A DNA stretch of 35,071 bases from Anaerolineae bacterium (GTDB lineage Bacteria > Chloroflexota > Anaerolineae > B4-G1 > DUEL01). Each line of letters begins with the position of its first letter. The stretch's first letter is position 1. The stretch is from assembly GCA_025062415.1 (NCBI GenBank), contig JANXAH010000183.1, positions 1 through 35,071 of the forward strand, written 5' to 3'. The notes beneath the pieces were generated by a model. That model searched no databases and had not been told where the DNA came from. It saw only the letters and a list, made by a program, of their open reading frames with translations. Positions 10,020 to 34,732 of the stretch are shown piece by piece. A program made the translations under genes and the position numbers.

Positions 10020-11734
10020 GGGCAAGCACAATCGTTCAGGCGGATGCGGGTCACCTCCCGACCGCGCGCGTCCGTGACATGGATGGCACAGGCCATACAC
10101 GGGTCAAAGGAGTGGATGGTCCGCAGGATCTCTATAGGCCGCTCCGGGTCGGCAATGGGGGTACCGACCAGGGAGGCTTCGTAGGCCCCCGGCTGGCCCT
10201 TTGCGTCCCGCGGGGAACCGTTCCAGGTGGAGGGGACCACCGCCTGATAGTTGGCGATCTTGCCGTCCACAATGCGTACCCAGTGGCCCAGGGCGCCGCG
10301 CGGGGCCTCGTGGGGCCCCCATCCCTGTGCCTCTTTCGGCCAGGTGGCGGGGTCCCACTTCTCCCCGTTGTGGACGGCCAGGTCACCGCGCGCGATGTTC
10401 TCCGCCAGTTCGTCTACCCACTTATTCAGTTGCTCGGCGACGACCAGGGTCTCAATCCCGCGCGCTGCCGTGCGGCCCAGGGTGGAGAAGAGGGCCTCGG
10501 GCCCCACGCCCAGTTGCTTCAGGACCCCATCCACCAGTTCTTTCACCCGCTTCTGGCCGGAGGCATAGGCCACCAGCACTCGGGCCAGCGGCCCCACTTC
10601 CATCGGCTTGTCGTCGTACCGGGGCGCCTTAAGCCAGGAGTACTTGCCTGCGGTGTTCAGATACTCGTAGGGCGGCTTGGGACCGGTATAGTTCGGAGTG
10701 GTCTCCCCCTCCCATGGATGCTTGCCGACGCTATCGCCATCGGCGTACTGATACCAGGAGTGGGCCACGTACTCGGCGACCTTCTTGTGATCTACCGGAT
10801 AGACTGTACTCAGGTCTCGGTTGAGGATAATGCCTGCCGGGAAGAGGAGATTTCCAGCCCGGTCGGGGAACTCGCCGTAGACCAGGAAGTTGCCCAGCCC
10901 TTCGCCGATGCTGGCCCATTCGTCCTTGTAGAACGAGGCAATGGCCAGAAGGTCGGGGATATAGACCTGCTGGACGAAGGTCAGGGCCTTGGTGAAGAGC
11001 CGCTTCAGGAAGGCCAGTTTGTCTGCGTTCAACGCGGTCTCGCTATCCGGGTCCACTGTGATAGCCATCCCGCCCACCAGGTAGGTCTGGGGGTGGGGGT
11101 TCTTGCCGCCCAGAAGGGCGTGGGCCCGGATGACGTCCCGCTGCCAGTCCAGCGCCTCCAGGTAGTGGGCCACCGCCATCAGGTTGGCCTCGGGGGGAAG
11201 CCGGTAGGCCGGGTGGCCCCAGTAACCGTTGGCGAAAATCCCCAACTGGCCGCTGCGGACGAAGGCATCCAGTTTCGCCTTGATGGTGCGGAAATAGTCG
11301 GGGCTGGAATTGGGCCAGTCGGAGATAGACTGTGCCAGTTGGGCCGTTTTGTTGGGGTCGGCCTTCAGCGCGCTGGTGATGTCCACCCAGTCCAGGGCGT
11401 GAAGATGGTAGAAGTGAATGACGTGGTCCTGAACGTGCTGAATGCCCGCAATGAGGTTGCGGATAATCCGCGCGTTATCCGGAATCTGAATTCCCAGAGC
11501 GTCTTCTACGCCTCGCACGGAGGCGACGGCATGCACCGTCGTTCAGACCCCTCATATCCGCTGGGCCATCAGCCAGGCCTCGCGGGGGTCGCGGCCTTTG
11601 AGGATGATTTCCAGCCCCCGGAACATGGTACCGGAGGCCCAGGCCTCGGCGACGCGCCCATCTTCAATGCGGGCCTCAATGCGCAGATGGCCTTCTATGC
11701 GGGTGACGGGATCAATGACAATCTTCTGTGCCAT
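10016..11734 (-). CDS. [NiFe(Se)] hydrogenase large subunit with two in-frame UGA (Sec61, Sec64) in the N-terminal nickel motif
   Basis: Read through, this is a 572-residue catalytic subunit, the normal length for group 1 enzymes. Residues 1-60 (from IVIDPVTRIEGHLRIE to REAWLMAQRI) are followed by TGA (11554-11552), Gly-Val, TGA (11545-11543), then TTVHAVASVRGVEDALGI in the same frame. The family motif here is RICGVCTTVHA, so the two TGA fall exactly on the two Cys that bind Ni (terminal and bridging ligands). The C-terminal motif is intact (DPCMACAIH, C546 and C549), and a 20-residue tail after H552 awaits cleavage by the adjacent protease. TGA ends other genes in the window, including this one, so it is not globally reassigned. 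Selenocysteine is the most economical reading. The start lies 1 bp after the small subunit stop. Split annotation (11552-11734 and 10016-11536) would be an artefact. Confidence 0.93.
11510..11541 (-). promoter_or_regulatory. two tandem SECIS-like hairpins downstream of the double UGA
   Basis: On the mRNA strand, hairpin 1 is CGACGG-UGCAUG-CCGUCG (11541-11524), a perfect 6-bp stem starting one base after the second UGA. Hairpin 2 is GCCUC-CGUGC-GAGGC (11524-11510), a perfect 5-bp stem abutting it. Each apical loop has a G in its first two bases, as in the bacterial SECIS description. The loop of hairpin 1 starts about 20 nt from the first UGA and that of hairpin 2 about 27 nt from the second, within the range reported for bacterial SECIS. 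The assignment of one hairpin per UGA is inference; both lie inside conserved coding sequence, so chance symmetry is possible. Confidence 0.55.
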
Positions 11735-11735
11735 C

Positions 11736-12821
11736 TCACTCCTCCTTCTTGGCGATCTGGCTCACCGCCACTGCACCGGCCACACCGGCGGCCACACCCA
11801 CTGCGGCGCCGATAACGCCCGCCGTGATGGGGGACATTTCTTTGACCGGCTCCACTTCGGGGTAAGTGGTGGGCGGCGTCAGGACGTGGATGGGGACAGG
11901 TTCGTAGGCGGGCATCTCCCAGAAGTTGGGGGCACCGCAGGCGATGCAGCCGTGCCCGGCGCCCACCGGCCAGGAAGTCCCCTCGTTCCAGCGGATGGAC
12001 GGGCAGTTCATAAAGGCGACGGGCCCCTTGCAGCCCATCTTGTAGAGACACCAGCCCTTGCGGTGGCCCTCGTCGCCCCAGGCCTCCACGAACTCCCCGG
12101 CGTCAAAGTGGCCGCGCCGTTCGCAGTTGTCGTGGATGCGACGGCCATGGGCGAAGAGGGGCCGGCCCAGGTCGTCCAGCGCGGGCAATTCTTTGAAGGT
12201 CAAGTAGTGGACCACCGTAGCGGTGATGTTATCGGCGTTCGGGGGGCAACCGGAGAGGTTGACAATGGGGACGCCGGAGATGATGTCCTTGACCCCTTTG
12301 GCGCCGGTGGGATTGGGAGGTGTGGACGGCCAGCCGCCGTAGAAGGCGCAGGCGCCTACAGTGATGATGGCCGCCGTGTTGGCCGCTACCTCCTTGAGAA
12401 TGTCCAGCGCGGTGCGGCCAGCAATACAGCAATAGATACCGTCGTCGGCAGTGGGAATGGAGCCCTCCACGATAGTGATGTAGCCTCCTTCCTTGATAGT
12501 ATCGTGAAGGGACTTTTCTGCCGCATGGCCGGCGGGGGCCATAATGGTCTCCAAGTAATTCAGGGAGAGAATGTCCAGAACCAATTCGGCAACGGAGGGA
12601 CGGTTGGCCCGCAGGAGGGATTCGGTGCAGCCCGTACACTCCTGGAAGTGCATCCAGACGACGGGAGGCCGTCGGACGCTCTCCAGGGCCCGAGCGATTT
12701 TCTCCGCCCGGTCCACCGGCAGAGCCAGAACACCAGCCATGATGGTGCAGAACTTCAGGAACTCACGACGGGAGATCCCCCGGACGGCCAATTCTTCGGC
12801 CAGGGTCATAGAACGTTCCAT
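11736..12821 (-). CDS. [NiFe] hydrogenase small subunit, Tat-exported and membrane-anchored
   Basis: The 361-residue electron-transfer subunit has a Tat signal (SRREFLKFCTIMAGVLALP, about residues 15-35). The proximal cluster motif is ECTGCTE, with later Cys in GACAFYGG and LSGCPPN. The medial/distal cluster region is HDNCERRGHFDAG, WCLYKMGCKGP, NCPSIRWNEGTSWPVGAGHGCIACGAPNFWE. A C-terminal helix (ITAGVIGAAVGVAAGVAGAVAVS) anchors it. The proximal motif has Gly where O2-tolerant enzymes have an extra Cys, so a standard 4-Cys cluster is expected. The start is ATG at 12821, with AAGGAGGT 5 bp upstream; the longer frame to 12890 is disfavoured because this ribosome-binding site lies inside it. 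It heads the operon. Confidence 0.94.
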   Translation of the reverse strand: MERSMTLAEELAVRGISRREFLKFCTIMAGVLALPVDRAEKIARALESVRRPPVVWMHFQECTGCTESLLRANRPSVAELVLDILSLNYLETIMAPAGHAAEKSLHDTIKEGGYITIVEGSIPTADDGIYCCIAGRTALDILKEVAANTAAIITVGACAFYGGWPSTPPNPTGAKGVKDIISGVPIVNLSGCPPNADNITATVVHYLTFKELPALDDLGRPLFAHGRRIHDNCERRGHFDAGEFVEAWGDEGHRKGWCLYKMGCKGPVAFMNCPSIRWNEGTSWPVGAGHGCIACGAPNFWEMPAYEPVPIHVLTPPTTYPEVEPVKEMSPITAGVIGAAVGVAAGVAGAVAVSQIAKKEE

Positions 12822-30209: not shown

Positions 30210-30257
30210 TTGACAAAAGGTCGCTATGCGGATATACTGTATGCAACTCATTGCATA
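30210..30257 (+). promoter_or_regulatory. promoter plus ArsR-type operator of the thiol/lipoyl operon
   Basis: -35 TTGACA (30210-30215), 17-bp spacer, -10 TATACT (30233-30238), expected start near 30245. A perfect inverted repeat TATGCAA-CTCA-TTGCATA (30240-30257) covers the start site. A wider pair TCGCTAT (30221-30227) and ATAGCGA (30257-30263) surrounds it. This is the usual place for a self-repressing ArsR/SmtB dimer site. Confidence 0.8.
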
Positions 30258-30269
30258 TAGCGACCTCCT

Positions 30270-30632
30270 GTGGAAAACGAACGTTACGAATCGGCCATAC
30301 GACTCCTTGCCCTCCTGGCCCATCCGGCGCGCCTGCGGATTCTGGATATTCTGCGGCGTGGTGAAGCCTGCGTCTGTCACCTGCAGGCTGCGCTGGAGGT
30401 CCCCCAACCGTATGTTTCCCAGCAATTGCGGGTATTGCGGGAGGCCGGCCTGATCTCCCAACGTCGGGAGGGGCTTTTTATCTACTACCGGCTGGCGGAT
30501 GAACGGGTGGCCCATCTGCTGGCAGAGGTTCTTGGGCCAGCAACGGTGGAGGCTCCAATCCCTCATTGCGCCTGCCCCCGCTGTCAGGAGACCCATCTCT
30601 CCCAATCCTTCTGCCTGGTGGAGGTAAACTGA
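30270..30632 (+). CDS. ArsR/SmtB-family metal(loid)- or thiol-responsive repressor
   Basis: The 120-residue winged-helix repressor has helices LLALLAHPARLRILDILRRGEACVCHLQAALEVPQPYVSQQLRVLREAGLISQRREGLFIYYRL. The pair C34-V-C35/36 (ACVCHL) sits where As(III)-sensing ArsR proteins have ELCVCDL. A second Cys group is added at the C-terminus (PHCACPRCQETHLSQSFC). This suggests binding of a soft metal(loid) or a sulfane/persulfide signal. The GTG start has no good Shine-Dalgarno; transcription should begin about 25 nt upstream in the operator. It leads a compact + strand cluster through 34732 and probably controls it. Confidence 0.9.
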   Translation: MENERYESAIRLLALLAHPARLRILDILRRGEACVCHLQAALEVPQPYVSQQLRVLREAGLISQRREGLFIYYRLADERVAHLLAEVLGPATVEAPIPHCACPRCQETHLSQSFCLVEVN

Positions 30633-30633
30633 A

Positions 30634-30840
30634 ATGACCCAACCGCGCGAGGATCAGAAGTCCCCCGTCCAATGCGCATGCGTCAAGGACCCCTTCGCGC
30701 TGCTCCCGCCGGAAATGCGGCCGCGCGAGGGGAAAAAGAGCAGCCTCCGGCAGGTCACCTGCCCTGGCTGTGGTCTGACCTTCTGGACCAATCGGGAGAC
30801 CGACTACTGTATGGAATGTGAGAAAAGAATGACAAAATGA
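30634..30840 (+). CDS. 68-aa cysteine-rich zinc-ribbon-like protein
   Basis: Six Cys stand in three pairs: C14-A-C16, C43-PG-C46 and C59-ME-C62. The last two (VTCPGCGLTFWTNRETDYCMEC) look like a small zinc ribbon; the first CxC could bind a further metal. It begins 1 bp after the arsR stop, so it is translationally coupled. The last codons lie in the 8-bp repeat array, so the C-terminus may vary between strains. I do not recognise the family. Position suggests a metal-binding partner or buffer for the operon. Confidence 0.7.
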   Translation: MTQPREDQKSPVQCACVKDPFALLPPEMRPREGKKSSLRQVTCPGCGLTFWTNRETDYCMECEKRMTK

Positions 30841-30923
30841 CGAAATGACAGAATGACGGAATGACGGAATGACAGAATGACGAAATGACAGAATGACAGA
30901 ATGACAGAATGACGGAATGACGG
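30828..30923. repeat. 12 copies of an 8-bp unit AATGACRR
   Basis: Uninterrupted 8-bp periodicity (AATGACAA, -GA, -AG, -GG and so on) runs from the end of the 68-aa gene to just before lpd. The unit contains ATGA, so it offers many start/stop overlaps in changing frames. Copy number is likely unstable and would alter spacing between the two genes. Confidence 0.9.
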
Positions 30924-30954
30924 AATACGGAATACGCAACACAAGGAGACGAGC

Positions 30955-32358
30955 ATGACCGAGACCTACGACGTCGCGATTTTAGGGGCGGGGCCCGGTG
31001 GGTATGTGGCGGCGCTGCGGGCGGCCCAGTTGGGGATGCGCGTCGCGCTGGTGGAACAAGCGCGCGTTGGCGGGACCTGCCTCAACGTCGGATGTATCCC
31101 GACAAAGGCTCTGGTCACCGCAACGGATCTGCTGGCCCGCGCCCGACGCGCCGCGGAGTACGGGGTCCGCATCCCCCAGGCCGCGCCCGACCTGGAGGGG
31201 ATGATGGCCTACCAGCGGACTGCTGTGGAGCGGCTGGTGGGCGGTGTAGAGCAACTGTTGAAGGATTGGAAGGTCGTAGTGATCCGGGGCCGGGGCCGCC
31301 TGATCCGCCCGGACGCTCTCGCTGTGACCGACGGGGCCGGGCAGACGACGGAGGTCGTCGCCCGAAACATCATCCTGGCCCCCGGCTCCGTGACGGCCCG
31401 CCCGCCCATCCCCGGCCTGGACCTCCCTGGCGTGGTGACCAGTACGGAGGCGCTGGACGTCTCCAGCATCCCGGCCCACCTGGTGGTCATCGGCGGCGGG
31501 GTCATCGGGCTGGAGTTCGCCTGCATCTACGAGGCACTGGGGAGCCGCATCACCGTCCTGGAGATGATGCCGAATCTCCTTCCCGGCGCGGCCGACGAGG
31601 CCATCGCGAAGCGGTTGGCGGTGCTTCTGCGGCGGCGGGGGATGGACATCCGCACCGGCGCAACGGTCCAGGCTGTGGAGGAGGCGGAGAGCGGCCTGCG
31701 GGTGCGCTTCGCCACGGCGAAAGGGGAAGAGGCCGTGGTGGGCGACCGGGTTCTCCTGGCGACGGGCCGTTGGCCCAACACTGCTGACCTGGGGCTGGAG
31801 GAAGTGGGCGTCCAGATGAACCGGCGCGCGATCGCGGTGGACGAGTACCTGCGGACGAACGTTCCCAACGTCTGGGCCATCGGCGATGCCATCGGCGGGA
31901 TGATGCTGGCCCACAAGGCGATGGTGGACGGGCGGGTGGCGGTGGAGAACATCGCCGGTCAGAAGCGGGCGGTGGACTACCGATCCGTGCCCAGCGCCAT
32001 TTTCACCTCGCCGGAGGTGGCGGGGGTCGGGCTGACGGAGGAGCAGGCCCGCCAGCAGGGCGCCGACGTTCGGGTGCTCCAGTTCCCGTTCTCCGCCAAT
32101 CCCCGTGCCCAGATTCTGGGGGAGACGGAGGGGCTGGTCCGCATCATCTGCGAGGCGGGCAGTGGGCGGGTGCTGGGGGTGCATATGATGGGCCCCCACG
32201 TCACCGAACTCATCGCCGAAGGGGCGCTGGCCGTGCAGACGGGCGCCACCGCCGACGATTTGGCCTGGACCACCCACGCCCATCCCACGCTGACCGAGGC
32301 CGTCCTGGAGGCCGCGCTGGGATTCCGGGGCGCGACCATTCACTATCATCGGAAGTAG
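30955..32358 (+). CDS. lpdA: dihydrolipoamide dehydrogenase (Lpd)
   Basis: The 467-residue FAD disulfide reductase has an FAD site AILGAGPGGYVAALRAAQLG, redox disulfide C42/C47 in GGTCLNVGCIPTK, NAD site VVIGGGVIGLEFACIYEALGSRITVLE, second FAD motif VWAIGDAIGGMMLAHKA and the catalytic His-Glu pair in THAHPTLTEAV. All active-site parts of a true Lpd are present. It reoxidises dihydrolipoyl groups with NAD+, or the reverse. ATG 30955 has AAGGAGACGAGC upstream. There is no pyruvate dehydrogenase or complete glycine cleavage set; the next gene is a lipoyl carrier, so this Lpd most likely serves that protein. Confidence 0.95.
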   Translation: MTETYDVAILGAGPGGYVAALRAAQLGMRVALVEQARVGGTCLNVGCIPTKALVTATDLLARARRAAEYGVRIPQAAPDLEGMMAYQRTAVERLVGGVEQLLKDWKVVVIRGRGRLIRPDALAVTDGAGQTTEVVARNIILAPGSVTARPPIPGLDLPGVVTSTEALDVSSIPAHLVVIGGGVIGLEFACIYEALGSRITVLEMMPNLLPGAADEAIAKRLAVLLRRRGMDIRTGATVQAVEEAESGLRVRFATAKGEEAVVGDRVLLATGRWPNTADLGLEEVGVQMNRRAIAVDEYLRTNVPNVWAIGDAIGGMMLAHKAMVDGRVAVENIAGQKRAVDYRSVPSAIFTSPEVAGVGLTEEQARQQGADVRVLQFPFSANPRAQILGETEGLVRIICEAGSGRVLGVHMMGPHVTELIAEGALAVQTGATADDLAWTTHAHPTLTEAVLEAALGFRGATIHYHRK

Positions 32359-32475
32359 GGAGCACCACAAAGGCGCGAAGACACGAAGGAATTAACAACT
32401 AAAAAATTAACAATTAAAAATTAACAATTAAACTTCGTGTCTTTGTGTCTTCGTGGCGAACTCAAAGAGGGGGCG
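32359..32475. other. A+T-rich island with TTAACAATTAAAA repeats between CACGAAG/CTTCGTG arms
   Basis: The 117-bp gap holds three copies of TTAACAATTAA-like sequence (about 32392-32430), flanked by GACACGAAG and CTTCGTGTC arms. It is strikingly A+T-rich in a G+C-rich setting. The flanking CTTCGTGTCTTTGTGTCTTCGTGG type sequence is a common intergenic repeat in metagenome-derived genomes (from memory). It may form a large stem-loop between lpd and the lipoyl-carrier gene. Confidence 0.6.
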
Positions 32476-32928
32476 ATGAACGGCTTCCTGGAACTGGTTG
32501 TGGATAAGTTCGTTTTCCGCTTCGCCACGGACCGGTACTACCACCCGGAGGGGGTATGGGCGCTACCGGAGGGGGACGGTCGGGTGCGCATCGGGCTTTC
32601 GGACTTCGCCCAGCAATCGGGGGGCGACGTTGCCTTCGCCGAGGTGAAGCCAGTGGGGACAGCGCTGGCCTTCGGCGATGAGGTCGCGTCGGTGGAGACG
32701 ATGAAGACCGATATCGCTGTCCCGGCGCCGGTGAGCGGGACGGTCGTGGAGGTCAACCCCGCGCTGGAGACCGCGCCGGAGGTCATCAATGAGGACCCCT
32801 ACGGCGAGGGCTGGCTGGCGGTCATAGAGGCCGCAGATTGGGAGACCGACCGGGCCCGCCTGCTGGACGCGCAGGCATATCTGGAGCGGGTGCGGGAAGT
32901 TGCAGAAGAGGGGATGAGAAAGCGGTGA
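32476..32928 (+). CDS. GcvH-like lipoyl (or biotinyl) carrier protein
   Basis: The 150-residue protein is a hammerhead beta-barrel of the glycine cleavage H type: PEGVWALPEGDGRVRIGLSDFAQQSGGDVAFAEVKPVGTALAFGDEVASVETMKTDIAVPAPVSGTVVEVNPALETAPEVINEDPYGEGWLAVIE. The modified residue is K77 in VETMKTD. Classical GcvH has ESVKAAS; ETMK is intermediate between lipoyl and biotinyl motifs. I favour lipoyl because lpd precedes it and the rest is GcvH-like. No glycine cleavage P or T genes are present, so it is probably a specialised carrier, comparable in idea to the lipoate-binding proteins of the sHdr sulfur oxidation pathway. ATG 32476 follows AGAGGGGGCG. Confidence 0.85.
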   Translation: MNGFLELVVDKFVFRFATDRYYHPEGVWALPEGDGRVRIGLSDFAQQSGGDVAFAEVKPVGTALAFGDEVASVETMKTDIAVPAPVSGTVVEVNPALETAPEVINEDPYGEGWLAVIEAADWETDRARLLDAQAYLERVREVAEEGMRKR

Positions 32929-32998
32929 ATTGGGGAAGCAACAGAATCGGCGAGCATTTGCGTCCGTCTGCGTCCTGGTTTGAAATCGCGGAGGCGGG

Positions 32999-33400
32999 AT
33001 GAGCGAAAAGGTGGTGGTCATTCCCTGCAGCGGTATTGGCAAGACATTCGGGACGGTGAGCCGCGAGGCCGCGTACGCCGTGGTGGAGGACCTACGCCCG
33101 GACCGAACCCAACTGGTCGCCCTTTCCCTGCTGGTGCTGGGGGACGAGGAGGCGCGGGCGGCAGTGGCCGGCCATCCCACCATCACCATTGACGGCTGCC
33201 GTCTGGCCTGCGCGACCAAAATGGTCCAGGAGAGCGGTCTACCGGTGGCCCGTTCGTTCACCGTCCTGGACGCCTTCCGGAAGCACCGCGACCTGAAGCC
33301 GGAGGGCATCTCAGCCTTGAATCCGGAGGGTCAGCAACTGGCCTGCGCTCTGGCGAAGGAGATCGCGGAGGCAATAGACGCGCTGCAGGAGGAGGCGTAA
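32999..33400 (+). CDS. DGC-domain putative zinc-binding protein (short form)
   Basis: The 133-residue protein has Cys at C10 (VIPCSGIGK), C67 (TIDGC) and C71 (RLAC), matching the DGC domain named for the Asp-Gly-Cys motif. The family is described as putative zinc-binding; its biochemistry is not known to me. Its core is shared with the N-terminal half of the next gene (CSG ... TVSR/VSREA ... LRPD ... IDGCxxxC), so the two arose by duplication. Start ATG 32999, with GGAGGCGG immediately upstream. Placed after a lipoyl carrier and before an OsmC-like protein, a thiol or metal-transfer role is plausible. Confidence 0.85.
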   Translation: MSEKVVVIPCSGIGKTFGTVSREAAYAVVEDLRPDRTQLVALSLLVLGDEEARAAVAGHPTITIDGCRLACATKMVQESGLPVARSFTVLDAFRKHRDLKPEGISALNPEGQQLACALAKEIAEAIDALQEEA

Positions 33401-33401
33401 A

Positions 33402-33452
33402 CGGAATACGCAATACGGAATACGCAATACGTACTCCGTACTCCGTATTCCG
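33402..33452. repeat. 23-bp imperfect inverted repeat of CGGAATACG units
   Basis: Arms 33402-33424 and 33430-33452 pair with three mismatches around a 5-base loop. The units CGGAATACG and CAATACG also occur just before lpd (about 30921-30942). The hairpin ends 12 bp before the start of the second DGC gene and could limit its expression. Confidence 0.75.
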
Positions 33453-33464
33453 TTGGAGGTGGCA

Positions 33465-34202
33465 ATGCCATTGTTGCCGAAAAAGAAGGTGGGGATTGTC
33501 GCCTGCTCCGGAGAAGAGTTGCCGGAGGGGACGGTTTCACGGGTTGCGGCGCTGAAGGTGCTGGAGGAACTGCGCCCGGACGACACAGTGACCATCTGCC
33601 TGCCGCTCTTTCTGGCGGGCGGGGAGGGAGACCGGGCCTTTGCCCGCTTCTACCCGACGGTCGCCATAGACGGCTGCGAGAAACGGTGCGCAGCGCGGGC
33701 GACGGAGATGTACTCCGGCAAGCCTGCTGCCAGCATCGTGGTGACGGACGTGGCAGCGGAGAACGGCCTGGGGCCCATCCGGGGCAGTCGGCGGCTGAAC
33801 GATGCCGGGATACGGGCTGCGGAACTGGTCGCCCAGGAGGTGGTTCGCCTGGTGGACGAACTGCTGGGCCGGACAGCGCAGGCGGTAGGGAAGGCCATTG
33901 CGGAGGAACCAACCCCGGAGGCCTCGGAGGAAGAGGAGGAGACCGTCACCCTCTGCTCCTGCGGCTCCGGCATCCCGGTACAGAAGGTGACGGTCAATGG
34001 GCGGGTGGTCACGCTCATCGCACTGCCCGCCATCTTTGAGCAGTTCTACCAGAACGGTAAACGGCCCGGCGACGGGACGACGCGGGAACTTCTGGAAATG
34101 ACCCGCATCTATAACCCCATTCCGCGGGAGGAGGAAGCCGCCTACGCCGAAGCGCTGGCGCGGGAGTATGAGAAGTTTTGCCGCAAGCGCGCTACGGGTT
34201 GA
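33465..34202 (+). CDS. DGC-domain protein with extra C-terminal Cys-containing domain
   Basis: The 245-residue protein has an N-terminal DGC domain (1-~135; C14 in VACSGEELPEG, C71 in AIDGC, C75) as in the preceding gene. A linker rich in Glu follows (about 149-161, EEPTPEASEEEEE), then a C-terminal domain starting TLCSCGSGIPVQKVTVNGRVVTLIALPAIFEQFYQNGKRPGDGTTRELLEMTRIYNPIP. C164 and C166 form a CxC pair like those in ArsR and the 68-aa protein of this operon. I do not recognise the C-terminal domain. ATG 33465 is chosen because TTGGAGGTGGCA precedes it. The protein probably handles a metal or persulfide delivered by the lipoyl carrier. Confidence 0.8.
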   Translation: MPLLPKKKVGIVACSGEELPEGTVSRVAALKVLEELRPDDTVTICLPLFLAGGEGDRAFARFYPTVAIDGCEKRCAARATEMYSGKPAASIVVTDVAAENGLGPIRGSRRLNDAGIRAAELVAQEVVRLVDELLGRTAQAVGKAIAEEPTPEASEEEEETVTLCSCGSGIPVQKVTVNGRVVTLIALPAIFEQFYQNGKRPGDGTTRELLEMTRIYNPIPREEEAAYAEALAREYEKFCRKRATG

Positions 34203-34253
34203 TGTGGCGCAGGCCGCTGGGCCTGCCTTACGCAGGCTAACAGCCCACGCCAA
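34203..34253. repeat. dispersed GCAGGC/GCAGGCTAACAGCC element
   Basis: The gap contains GGCGCAGGCCGCTGGGCCTGCCTTACGCAGG (split here by its own inverted symmetry) and AGGCTAACAGCC. It is a member of the family seen at 27085-27361 and 29861-29890. Confidence 0.65.
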
Positions 34254-34267
34254 CCACAAGGAGACGG

Positions 34268-34732
34268 ATGAGCCGCACTGCCACATACTACACCGTCGTC
34301 ACCTGGAAGGGGGAGCGCTGGGGCCACGTCGTTATGGGCAACGGGCCGGAAATGGACTTCTCCGCGCCGCCCGATGCCCATGGTCATCCCGGTGTCCTGA
34401 CGCCGGAAGATGCCTTCGTCGCTGCTGTCAATACCTGCATAATGATGATGTTCCTCTGGGCGGCGGAGCGGTTCAGATTGGACCTGGTCTCCTACGAGTG
34501 CCGGGCCGAGGGGACCAAGTTGGTGGAACTGGACCGAACGGAAACTTTCACCCACGTTTGGCTGTGGCCGAAGATTGTGGTGCGTGCGGGGAGCGAAGAC
34601 CCGGCGGTCGTGGAGAAGCGGGTACGCCGGGCGCTGGAAGGCGCGCGCAAATACAGTCTGGTTGCCAATTCCATCAAGTCGGAAGTCATCATAGAGCCGG
34701 AAATTGTCGTAGCGCAAGACGATGAACTTTAA
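34268..34732 (+). CDS. OsmC-like protein with only one of the two redox cysteines
   Basis: The 154-residue protein shows the OsmC/Ohr architecture: strand WKGERWGHVVMGNGPEMDFSAPPDAHGHPGVLTPEDAFVAAVNTCIMMMFLWAAERFRLDL (first redox Cys, C57), then VVEKRVRRALEGARKYSLVANSIKSEV. In active OsmC/Ohr peroxidases a second Cys stands in the segment that reads KYSLVANS here; this protein has Ser. It therefore cannot form the usual disulfide and may act as a thiol-binding or persulfide protein. OsmC/Ohr peroxidases are re-reduced by dihydrolipoamide and Lpd (established for Ohr), which fits the lpd and lipoyl carrier upstream. The start has AAGGAGACGG before ATG. It is the last gene of the cluster in the window. 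Confidence 0.85.
   Translation: MSRTATYYTVVTWKGERWGHVVMGNGPEMDFSAPPDAHGHPGVLTPEDAFVAAVNTCIMMMFLWAAERFRLDLVSYECRAEGTKLVELDRTETFTHVWLWPKIVVRAGSEDPAVVEKRVRRALEGARKYSLVANSIKSEVIIEPEIVVAQDDEL

Follow-up and report, generated by a model that had tools for sequence, protein, structure and literature searches.

An ArsR-led gene cassette encoding a lipoyl-type carrier, two DGC-domain proteins and an OsmC-fold protein recurs across phyla, often beside ars genes

Contig JANXAH010000183.1 of an Anaerolineae bacterium (assembly GCA_025062415.1), analyzed here over its whole length of 35,071 nucleotides and referred to as the window, carries near its end seven genes on one strand. They encode an ArsR/SmtB-family repressor, a 68-aa cysteine-rich protein, a dihydrolipoyl dehydrogenase (Lpd), a GcvH-like carrier (H), two DGC-domain proteins (D1 and D2, also DGC1 and DGC2) and an OsmC-fold protein (Osm). 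We found that this cluster belongs to a conserved cassette which, as far as could be tested, is an undescribed system; its parts all come from known families, and any novelty lies in their combination. We interpret the cassette as a dithiol relay that depends on a lipoyl group, is controlled by ArsR, handles arsenic or a similar thiophile and works with exchangeable exporters, an interpretation to which we give somewhat better than an even chance. The original prediction, made from the letters of the window, had named the seven genes, and all of the open reading frames were found on the + strand in the order described, with family assignments above curated cut-offs for every protein except the 68-aa one.

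The clustering of these genes is not due to chance, as dozens of loci have the core of the cassette with its gene order unchanged. A scan with D2, using one genome per species, gave 38 loci, and the set obtained after duplicate removal comprises 64 loci that span Chloroflexota, Acidobacteriota and Kiritimatiellota and include one archaeal bin. The presence of D2 and Osm in this set is partly guaranteed by the locus search, which does not apply to H, D1, ArsR, ArsE or ars genes. The order H-D1-D2-Osm is kept at 51/64 loci, and nearly all of the remaining loci are truncated where a contig stops. Neighboring genes share 4 to 8 nt in most relatives, a sign of translational coupling. D2 homologs are 52-87% identical to the window protein, and Osm homologs 62-93%. 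The Osm profile found matches in 31/298 genomes of the same class and the D2 profile in 5/400 genomes of the phylum, so that the distribution of the cassette among environmental bacteria is patchy, and in the phylogeny of H the sequences from Acidobacteriota and Kiritimatiellota are nested among those from Chloroflexota. The fact that the sequences are conserved while their presence is patchy suggests that the cassette has spread horizontally. Spread on plasmids was considered and rejected, since D2 had no match on any of 72,556 plasmids, on which Osm had only remote OsmC matches. The archaeal locus (L037, on a contig of Euryarchaeota bin_16) has the full H-D1-D2-Osm set beside a divergent ACR3, and either transfer or mis-binning may account for it.

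This survey of gene neighborhoods also bears on how the cassette is delimited. The concern raised with the original prediction, that conservation might be limited to this one genome, failed outright in view of the 64 loci across phyla. Lpd and the cysteine-rich protein, which had been counted as parts of the system, are not among its core components: Lpd is found at 7/64 loci and the cysteine-rich protein at 9/64, so both are accessory, and an ArsE-type thioredoxin belongs to the core instead. The Lpd of the window (30955..32358, 467 aa, with a GGTCLNVGC disulfide and an HAHPTLTE dyad) is a true dihydrolipoyl dehydrogenase, scoring 515.8 bits with TIGR01350 (cut-off 408.8) compared with 375.6 for the MerA model (cut-off 454.5). 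The cysteine-rich protein (30634..30840) appears zinc-ribbon-like by eye; it matches no Pfam or NCBIfam family above threshold, and homologs are present in some cassettes only.

The carrier H (32476..32928, 150 aa) is related to the H protein of the glycine cleavage system. It scores 116 bits with PF01597 (cut-off 22), exceeds the Pfam and PRK01202 cut-offs for GcvH, and finds its best PDB match in 1onl (E 3e-34). The start at ATG 32476 places the candidate lipoyl lysine at Lys77, within VETMK, in agreement with the original numbering. Both Lys77 and the Glu at position -3 are invariant in 55 cassette H sequences, and we predict that H is lipoylated on Lys77. H shares with GcvH the fold, the overall sequence and the invariant lysine with its glutamate, but differs from it in several respects. 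The lysine motif is ET[IMV]K in 54/55 cassette sequences, instead of ESVK/ESVKA. In the column of pea Glu14 (the HEW motif) Glu is found in 21/22 canonical GcvH proteins and in 0/55 cassette H proteins, which have Val, Leu or Ile instead, and in the column of pea Asp67 (K+4) Asp is found in 20/22 canonical proteins and is not conserved in the cassette. We take these two pea residues to belong to the aminomethyl-lipoate pocket seen in published structures of H protein. Three groups come out separately, without exception, in a maximum-likelihood tree: cassette H (support 100/92), the canonical GcvH proteins, and further GcvH-like proteins whose lysine motif is ESGKW.

The genomic context of H is also unlike that of GcvH, as it is not found beside gcvT or gcvP. 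Of 35 cassette genomes, 31 have GcvP, and most of those searched encode a separate GcvH of the ESVKA type on the same contig as GcvP and next to it. As the original prediction had stated, the cluster contains no glycine cleavage or 2-oxoacid dehydrogenase genes; in the genome of the window, GcvP and two further GcvH genes lie on other contigs. Because H forms its own clade, has changed pocket residues and occurs alongside separate GcvH genes, a role in glycine cleavage is very unlikely, and a glycine-cleavage origin of H was ruled out on the same evidence. These features contradict the other concern raised at the outset, that the carrier might function only in glycine cleavage, and they support the view of H as a lipoyl-type carrier with a different role in a conserved, undescribed cassette.

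The genes surrounding the cassette point to arsenic. As controls we used 36 other GcvH loci from the cassette genomes, and we counted neighbors within a distance of 6 kb. A thioredoxin of the ArsE/MTH895 type is encoded near 57/64 cassettes and 0/36 controls, and an ArsR near 44/64 cassettes and 2/36 controls. One of the two ArsR-positive controls (L182) is itself a variant of the cassette, so the latter contrast is conservative. At least one of ACR3, ArsC, ArsA, ArsD, ArsG and ArsP is encoded near 34/64 cassettes as compared with 0/36 controls (Fisher p = 5e-9), and the same set of genes is represented at 19/27 of the cassettes with at least 4 kb of flanking sequence on both sides. Representatives were checked with curated models: ACR3 scored 385 bits (cut-off 283), ArsD, ArsG and ArsE (TIGR00412) were above cut-off, the ArsP_1 representative scored 262 bits, and the ArsC representative was assigned by best match. 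When ACR3 is present it often adjoins the cassette (G515, G617, G586, G480 twice, G011 and G624), far more often than expected from position in a multi-megabase genome. The variant at L182 (6328-7902, contig C47 of G586) is a minimal ArsR-H-D1 arrangement beside a GcvH-type gene, with no D2 or Osm matches in the searched stretch; its ArsR has an ECVCHL motif and a C-terminal CPCPKC tail.

The repressor of the window (30270..30632, 120 aa, GTG start) scores 99.5 bits with NF033788 (cut-off 55) and has a CxC motif, EACVCHL, as well as a C-terminal HCACPRC tail. The motif (E-x-C-V-C-[HDE]-L) is present in the DNA-binding region of 42/46 cassette ArsRs, and a CxCPxC tail in 25/42 of those encoded upstream of the cassette. 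CxC sites of this type serve in the sensing of As(III)/Sb(III) and also of Cd/Pb. Immediately 5' of arsR, at 30237..30260, there is an inverted repeat, CTGTATGCAA-CTCA-TTGCATATAG, which is the probable ArsR operator. A palindrome of the TATATGCAA-N4-TTGCATATA type is located at the same place in the close relatives L009 and L012, and AT-rich palindromes are found upstream of arsR in L010, L017, L019, L029, L101 and L113. The recurrence of an adjacent ArsR, mostly with the CxC motif, supports the proposal that the cassette is under ArsR control.

Both D1 (32999..33400, 133 aa) and D2 (33465..34202, 245 aa) are members of the DGC family by score (PF08859, 54.3 and 60.6 bits, cut-off 27). D1 has invariant cysteines at positions 10, 67 and 71, and D2 at positions 14, 45, 71, 75, 164 and 166. 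D2 also has an additional C-terminal domain of about 75 aa (CSCGSGIP...) with a CSC motif, which is conserved and had gone unmentioned in the original prediction. AlphaFold2 models of the two proteins have pLDDT values of 95 (D1) and 86 (D2), and in the secondary structure of these models three or four invariant cysteines of the DGC domains follow directly on the ends of predicted strands, at positions where a thiolate or metal(loid) site might be formed. No significant PDB match was found for D1 or D2 by sequence or structure, nor was a solved relative. A weak likeness to flavodoxin-like proteins, lumazine synthase and low-molecular-weight phosphatases (best TM about 0.55 to YfkJ, E 0.13) was not relied on for fold assignment; low-molecular-weight phosphatases and ArsC have the same fold. 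A small stand-alone homolog of the CSC domain is encoded at L115 (11346-11654), suggesting that this domain, for which there is no Pfam family, is a separate module.

Osm (34268..34732, 154 aa; PF02566, 41 bits, cut-off 27.5) retains the peroxidatic site of OsmC proteins, with Glu47 and Cys57 invariant in an alignment compared with 2onf and 2d7v. The position of the resolving (second) cysteine in these two structures is taken by an invariant serine, Ser130, and there is an extra invariant cysteine, Cys78. As a 1-Cys protein, Osm would need an outside dithiol for resolution, a role that a dihydrolipoyl arm could fill.

The relay that we favor draws together the gene content and its conservation, the co-localization with ars genes, the operator-like palindromes, the invariant lysine and cysteines, and the separation of H from glycine-cleavage H proteins. 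The cluster would be one version of a mobile, ArsR-repressed cassette with the core H-D1-D2-Osm and an ArsE-type thioredoxin. A thiophilic inducer, most likely As(III), would bind the CxC site of ArsR and release the operon. H would be lipoylated at Lys77 and its lipoyl disulfide reduced by Lpd, which would be the cassette's own enzyme in the window and the housekeeping enzyme elsewhere. The dihydrolipoyl arm would then serve the cysteine sites of D1, D2, the 1-Cys Osm and ArsE, either by supplying electrons for the reduction of an arsenic species or a protein-thiol adduct, or by carrying As(III) itself as a dithiolate. The product would pass to whichever exporter adjoins the cassette in a given host, be it ACR3, an ArsA/D-linked exporter, ArsP or ArsG. 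We infer arsenic as the substrate, and the inducer, the transfer of electrons or arsenic and the order of the steps are inferred along with it. Proteins of the OsmC and AhpD families accept electrons from lipoyl/Lpd systems. The proposal that H is a free, dedicated lipoyl carrier acting as an arsenic shuttle, whose arm takes As(III), or else reduces As(V) or thiol-arsenicals, and delivers to the DGC sites and the OsmC-fold protein, and from there to ArsE and the exporter, is tentative and on balance doubtful. If true, it would give lipoate a role outside 2-oxoacid dehydrogenases, glycine cleavage and sHdr sulfur oxidation.

Several observations weigh against a relay for arsenic. ACR3 is not enriched genome-wide, being present in 9/31 cassette genomes and in 111/267 of the other genomes sampled from the class (p = 0.25), and the genome of the window itself has no ACR3 match. 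No recognized ars gene is found near almost half of the cassettes, and CxC sites of the ELCVCDL type are known in Cd/Pb sensors too. In addition, cassettes from Chloroflexota recur with genes for SPASM radical-SAM, AhpD-like and Fe-S proteins, TauE permeases and FmdE-like proteins, and the TauE, FmdE-like, Fe-S and radical-SAM neighbors are not explained by a role in arsenic handling only. The window encodes no exporter of arsenite or arsenicals and no arsenate reductase.

The original prediction had left the choice between metal(loid) and sulfane-sulfur handling undecided. The metal(loid) branch gains from the ars genes beside half of the cassettes, and the sulfane-sulfur branch gains little. 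In the latter case, an ArsR that senses sulfur would control the cassette and the lipoyl arm would move persulfide sulfur among DGC, OsmC-like and thioredoxin partners, as in sHdr-like systems, a reading that we consider unlikely. LbpA of sHdr sulfur oxidation shows that a GcvH-like carrier can take part in sulfur chemistry, and it is encoded, like H, in a cluster not devoted to glycine cleavage and in some cases with ArsR-type regulation (PMC6067878), and sulfane-sulfur-responsive ArsR repressors exist (PMC12423496, PMC10451225). TauE permeases near 11/64 cassettes, and a rhodanese-like domain seen by eye at L007, also fit such a role. However, bacterial LbpA proteins have two strictly conserved cysteines near their N and C termini (PMC6067878), whereas H has no invariant cysteine and is cysteine-free in 35/55 cases. 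The recurrent neighbors of the cassette include no sHdr, TusA or DsrE genes and no lipoate ligase or LipS genes, the latter two having been suggested in the original prediction as genes to look for nearby, and the partners of H are DGC and OsmC-like proteins. On the missing cysteines and the lack of hdr or ligase neighbors, membership of H among sHdr LbpA proteins was ruled out. The window ArsR, moreover, scores 68 bits with the BigR equivalog, far below its cut-off of 155, and has a CxC metal(loid) motif, and the 34/64 cassettes with ars genes nearby also argue against sulfane sulfur.

A thiol peroxidase or redox-stress system appears unlikely to a very similar degree. Here Lpd would reduce lipoyl-H, which would serve a 1-Cys Osm (and AhpD-like proteins) in the reduction of organic hydroperoxides, and ars genes would be nearby only through the oxidative stress that arsenic causes. 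The reduction of Ohr by lipoylated proteins is established, and AhpC-AhpD-SucB-Lpd of Mycobacterium tuberculosis is a lipoyl/Lpd-linked peroxidase system. The invariant Glu47 and Cys57 of Osm, the AhpD-like gene (AhpD/CMD domain) beside 13/64 cassettes and the Lpd in some loci recall these systems. Against this, serine replaces the resolving cysteine in all Osm sequences, a minimal peroxidase would have no use for two DGC proteins and ArsE, and the cassette differs from known Ohr/OsmC peroxidases in its dedicated free carrier, in its DGC proteins and in the control by an adjacent CxC ArsR. That the cassette serves to detoxify a different thiophilic metal (Cd, Pb, Hg, Cu or Zn) or to maintain its homeostasis, with DGC as a metal-binding or delivery protein, seems quite improbable. 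CxC ArsR sites are common to Cd/Pb sensors, and a cation-efflux family protein is encoded by 3/122 scanned neighbors, but no P-type ATPase, MerA/MerR or Cus family was seen among the recurrent neighbors shown, and the arsenic-specific ArsA, ArsD, ACR3, ArsG and ArsP recur instead. We find it scarcely credible that H is a misannotated or duplicated glycine-cleavage H protein in a fortuitous cluster, despite its scores above the GcvH cut-offs, in view of its separate clade, the altered Glu14 and Asp67 equivalents, the separate canonical GcvH of cassette genomes and a core order kept across phyla.

The cassette resembles ars operons in its CxC ArsR, its ArsE-type thioredoxin and its frequent ACR3, ArsC, ArsA, ArsD, ArsG or ArsP neighbors. 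It differs from them, including those of the arsEFG type, in having a lipoyl-type carrier, a DGC pair and an OsmC-like protein, and in that its exporter is not constant. In the open-licence PMC literature we found no description of an ars operon with any of these three components, nothing that connects DGC, GcvH-like and OsmC-like proteins with one another or with ars genes, no characterization of the DGC family, and nothing relevant under the NCBI regulator name TsoR. Very few processes are known to use lipoic acid, whose vicinal dithiol is the classic target of arsenite poisoning. If our interpretation is correct, a cassette in which a free lipoyl-type carrier is joined by an arsenic-type switch and arsenic exporters would turn this weakness into a defense. 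It would also provide a functional context for the uncharacterized DGC family and lengthen the list of lipoate-dependent systems. A direct test is feasible, since the cassette has few parts, which are apparently soluble and lend themselves to simple assays.

The contig stops 340 bp after the Osm gene, and the operon may therefore extend further; the window is the full length of one contig from a draft genome of 2.7 Mb (93% complete). The end of the contig would account for the ArsE-type thioredoxin missing from the window. Another contig of the same genome, C144, begins with an ArsE-like thioredoxin (336-623) followed by a radical-SAM gene (1113-2300), the order seen downstream of Osm in L021 and L039. 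A repeat in the tail of the window is also present in the first bases of C144, which is therefore a plausible but unproven continuation of the operon. Two genes of the LplA/LipB type are present elsewhere in the genome.

A SPASM radical-SAM protein whose N terminus is AbrB-like adjoins cassettes in Chloroflexota (L122:1113-2300, L018:3378-4643 and L021:1950-3203); its best model, below cut-off, is that of a tungsten-cofactor oxidoreductase maturase. FmdE-family proteins account for 7/122 scanned neighbors (among them L098:5737-6342, L100:6395-7012, L101:8042-8779, L025:5126-5731 and L095:4225-4827). The canonical ESVKA-type GcvH of the window's genome (L004:9740-10093, contig C235) does not adjoin gcvP, which is on other contigs, and lies near a gene that by eye is aldehyde ferredoxin oxidoreductase-like (10751-12466). 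The third GcvH-like group, with the ESGKW motif, is represented in the same genome (L005:4655-5089, contig C18) and in relatives (L147, L148, L149, L150, L152 and L153); in L005 the gene adjoins those for an HdrD/CCG-like protein and multihaem cytochromes (by eye). As its members form a strongly supported distinct clade, this group may possibly be another lipoyl carrier outside glycine cleavage. Finally, the spacers of the cassette in the window (30826-30926, 32365-32456 and 33400-33454) contain tandem and inverted repeats, with an array of the 8-bp unit AGAATGAC and hairpins of 24-25 nt. The same junctions are mostly gene overlaps in relatives, as if repeat elements had been inserted at several junctions of the operon.

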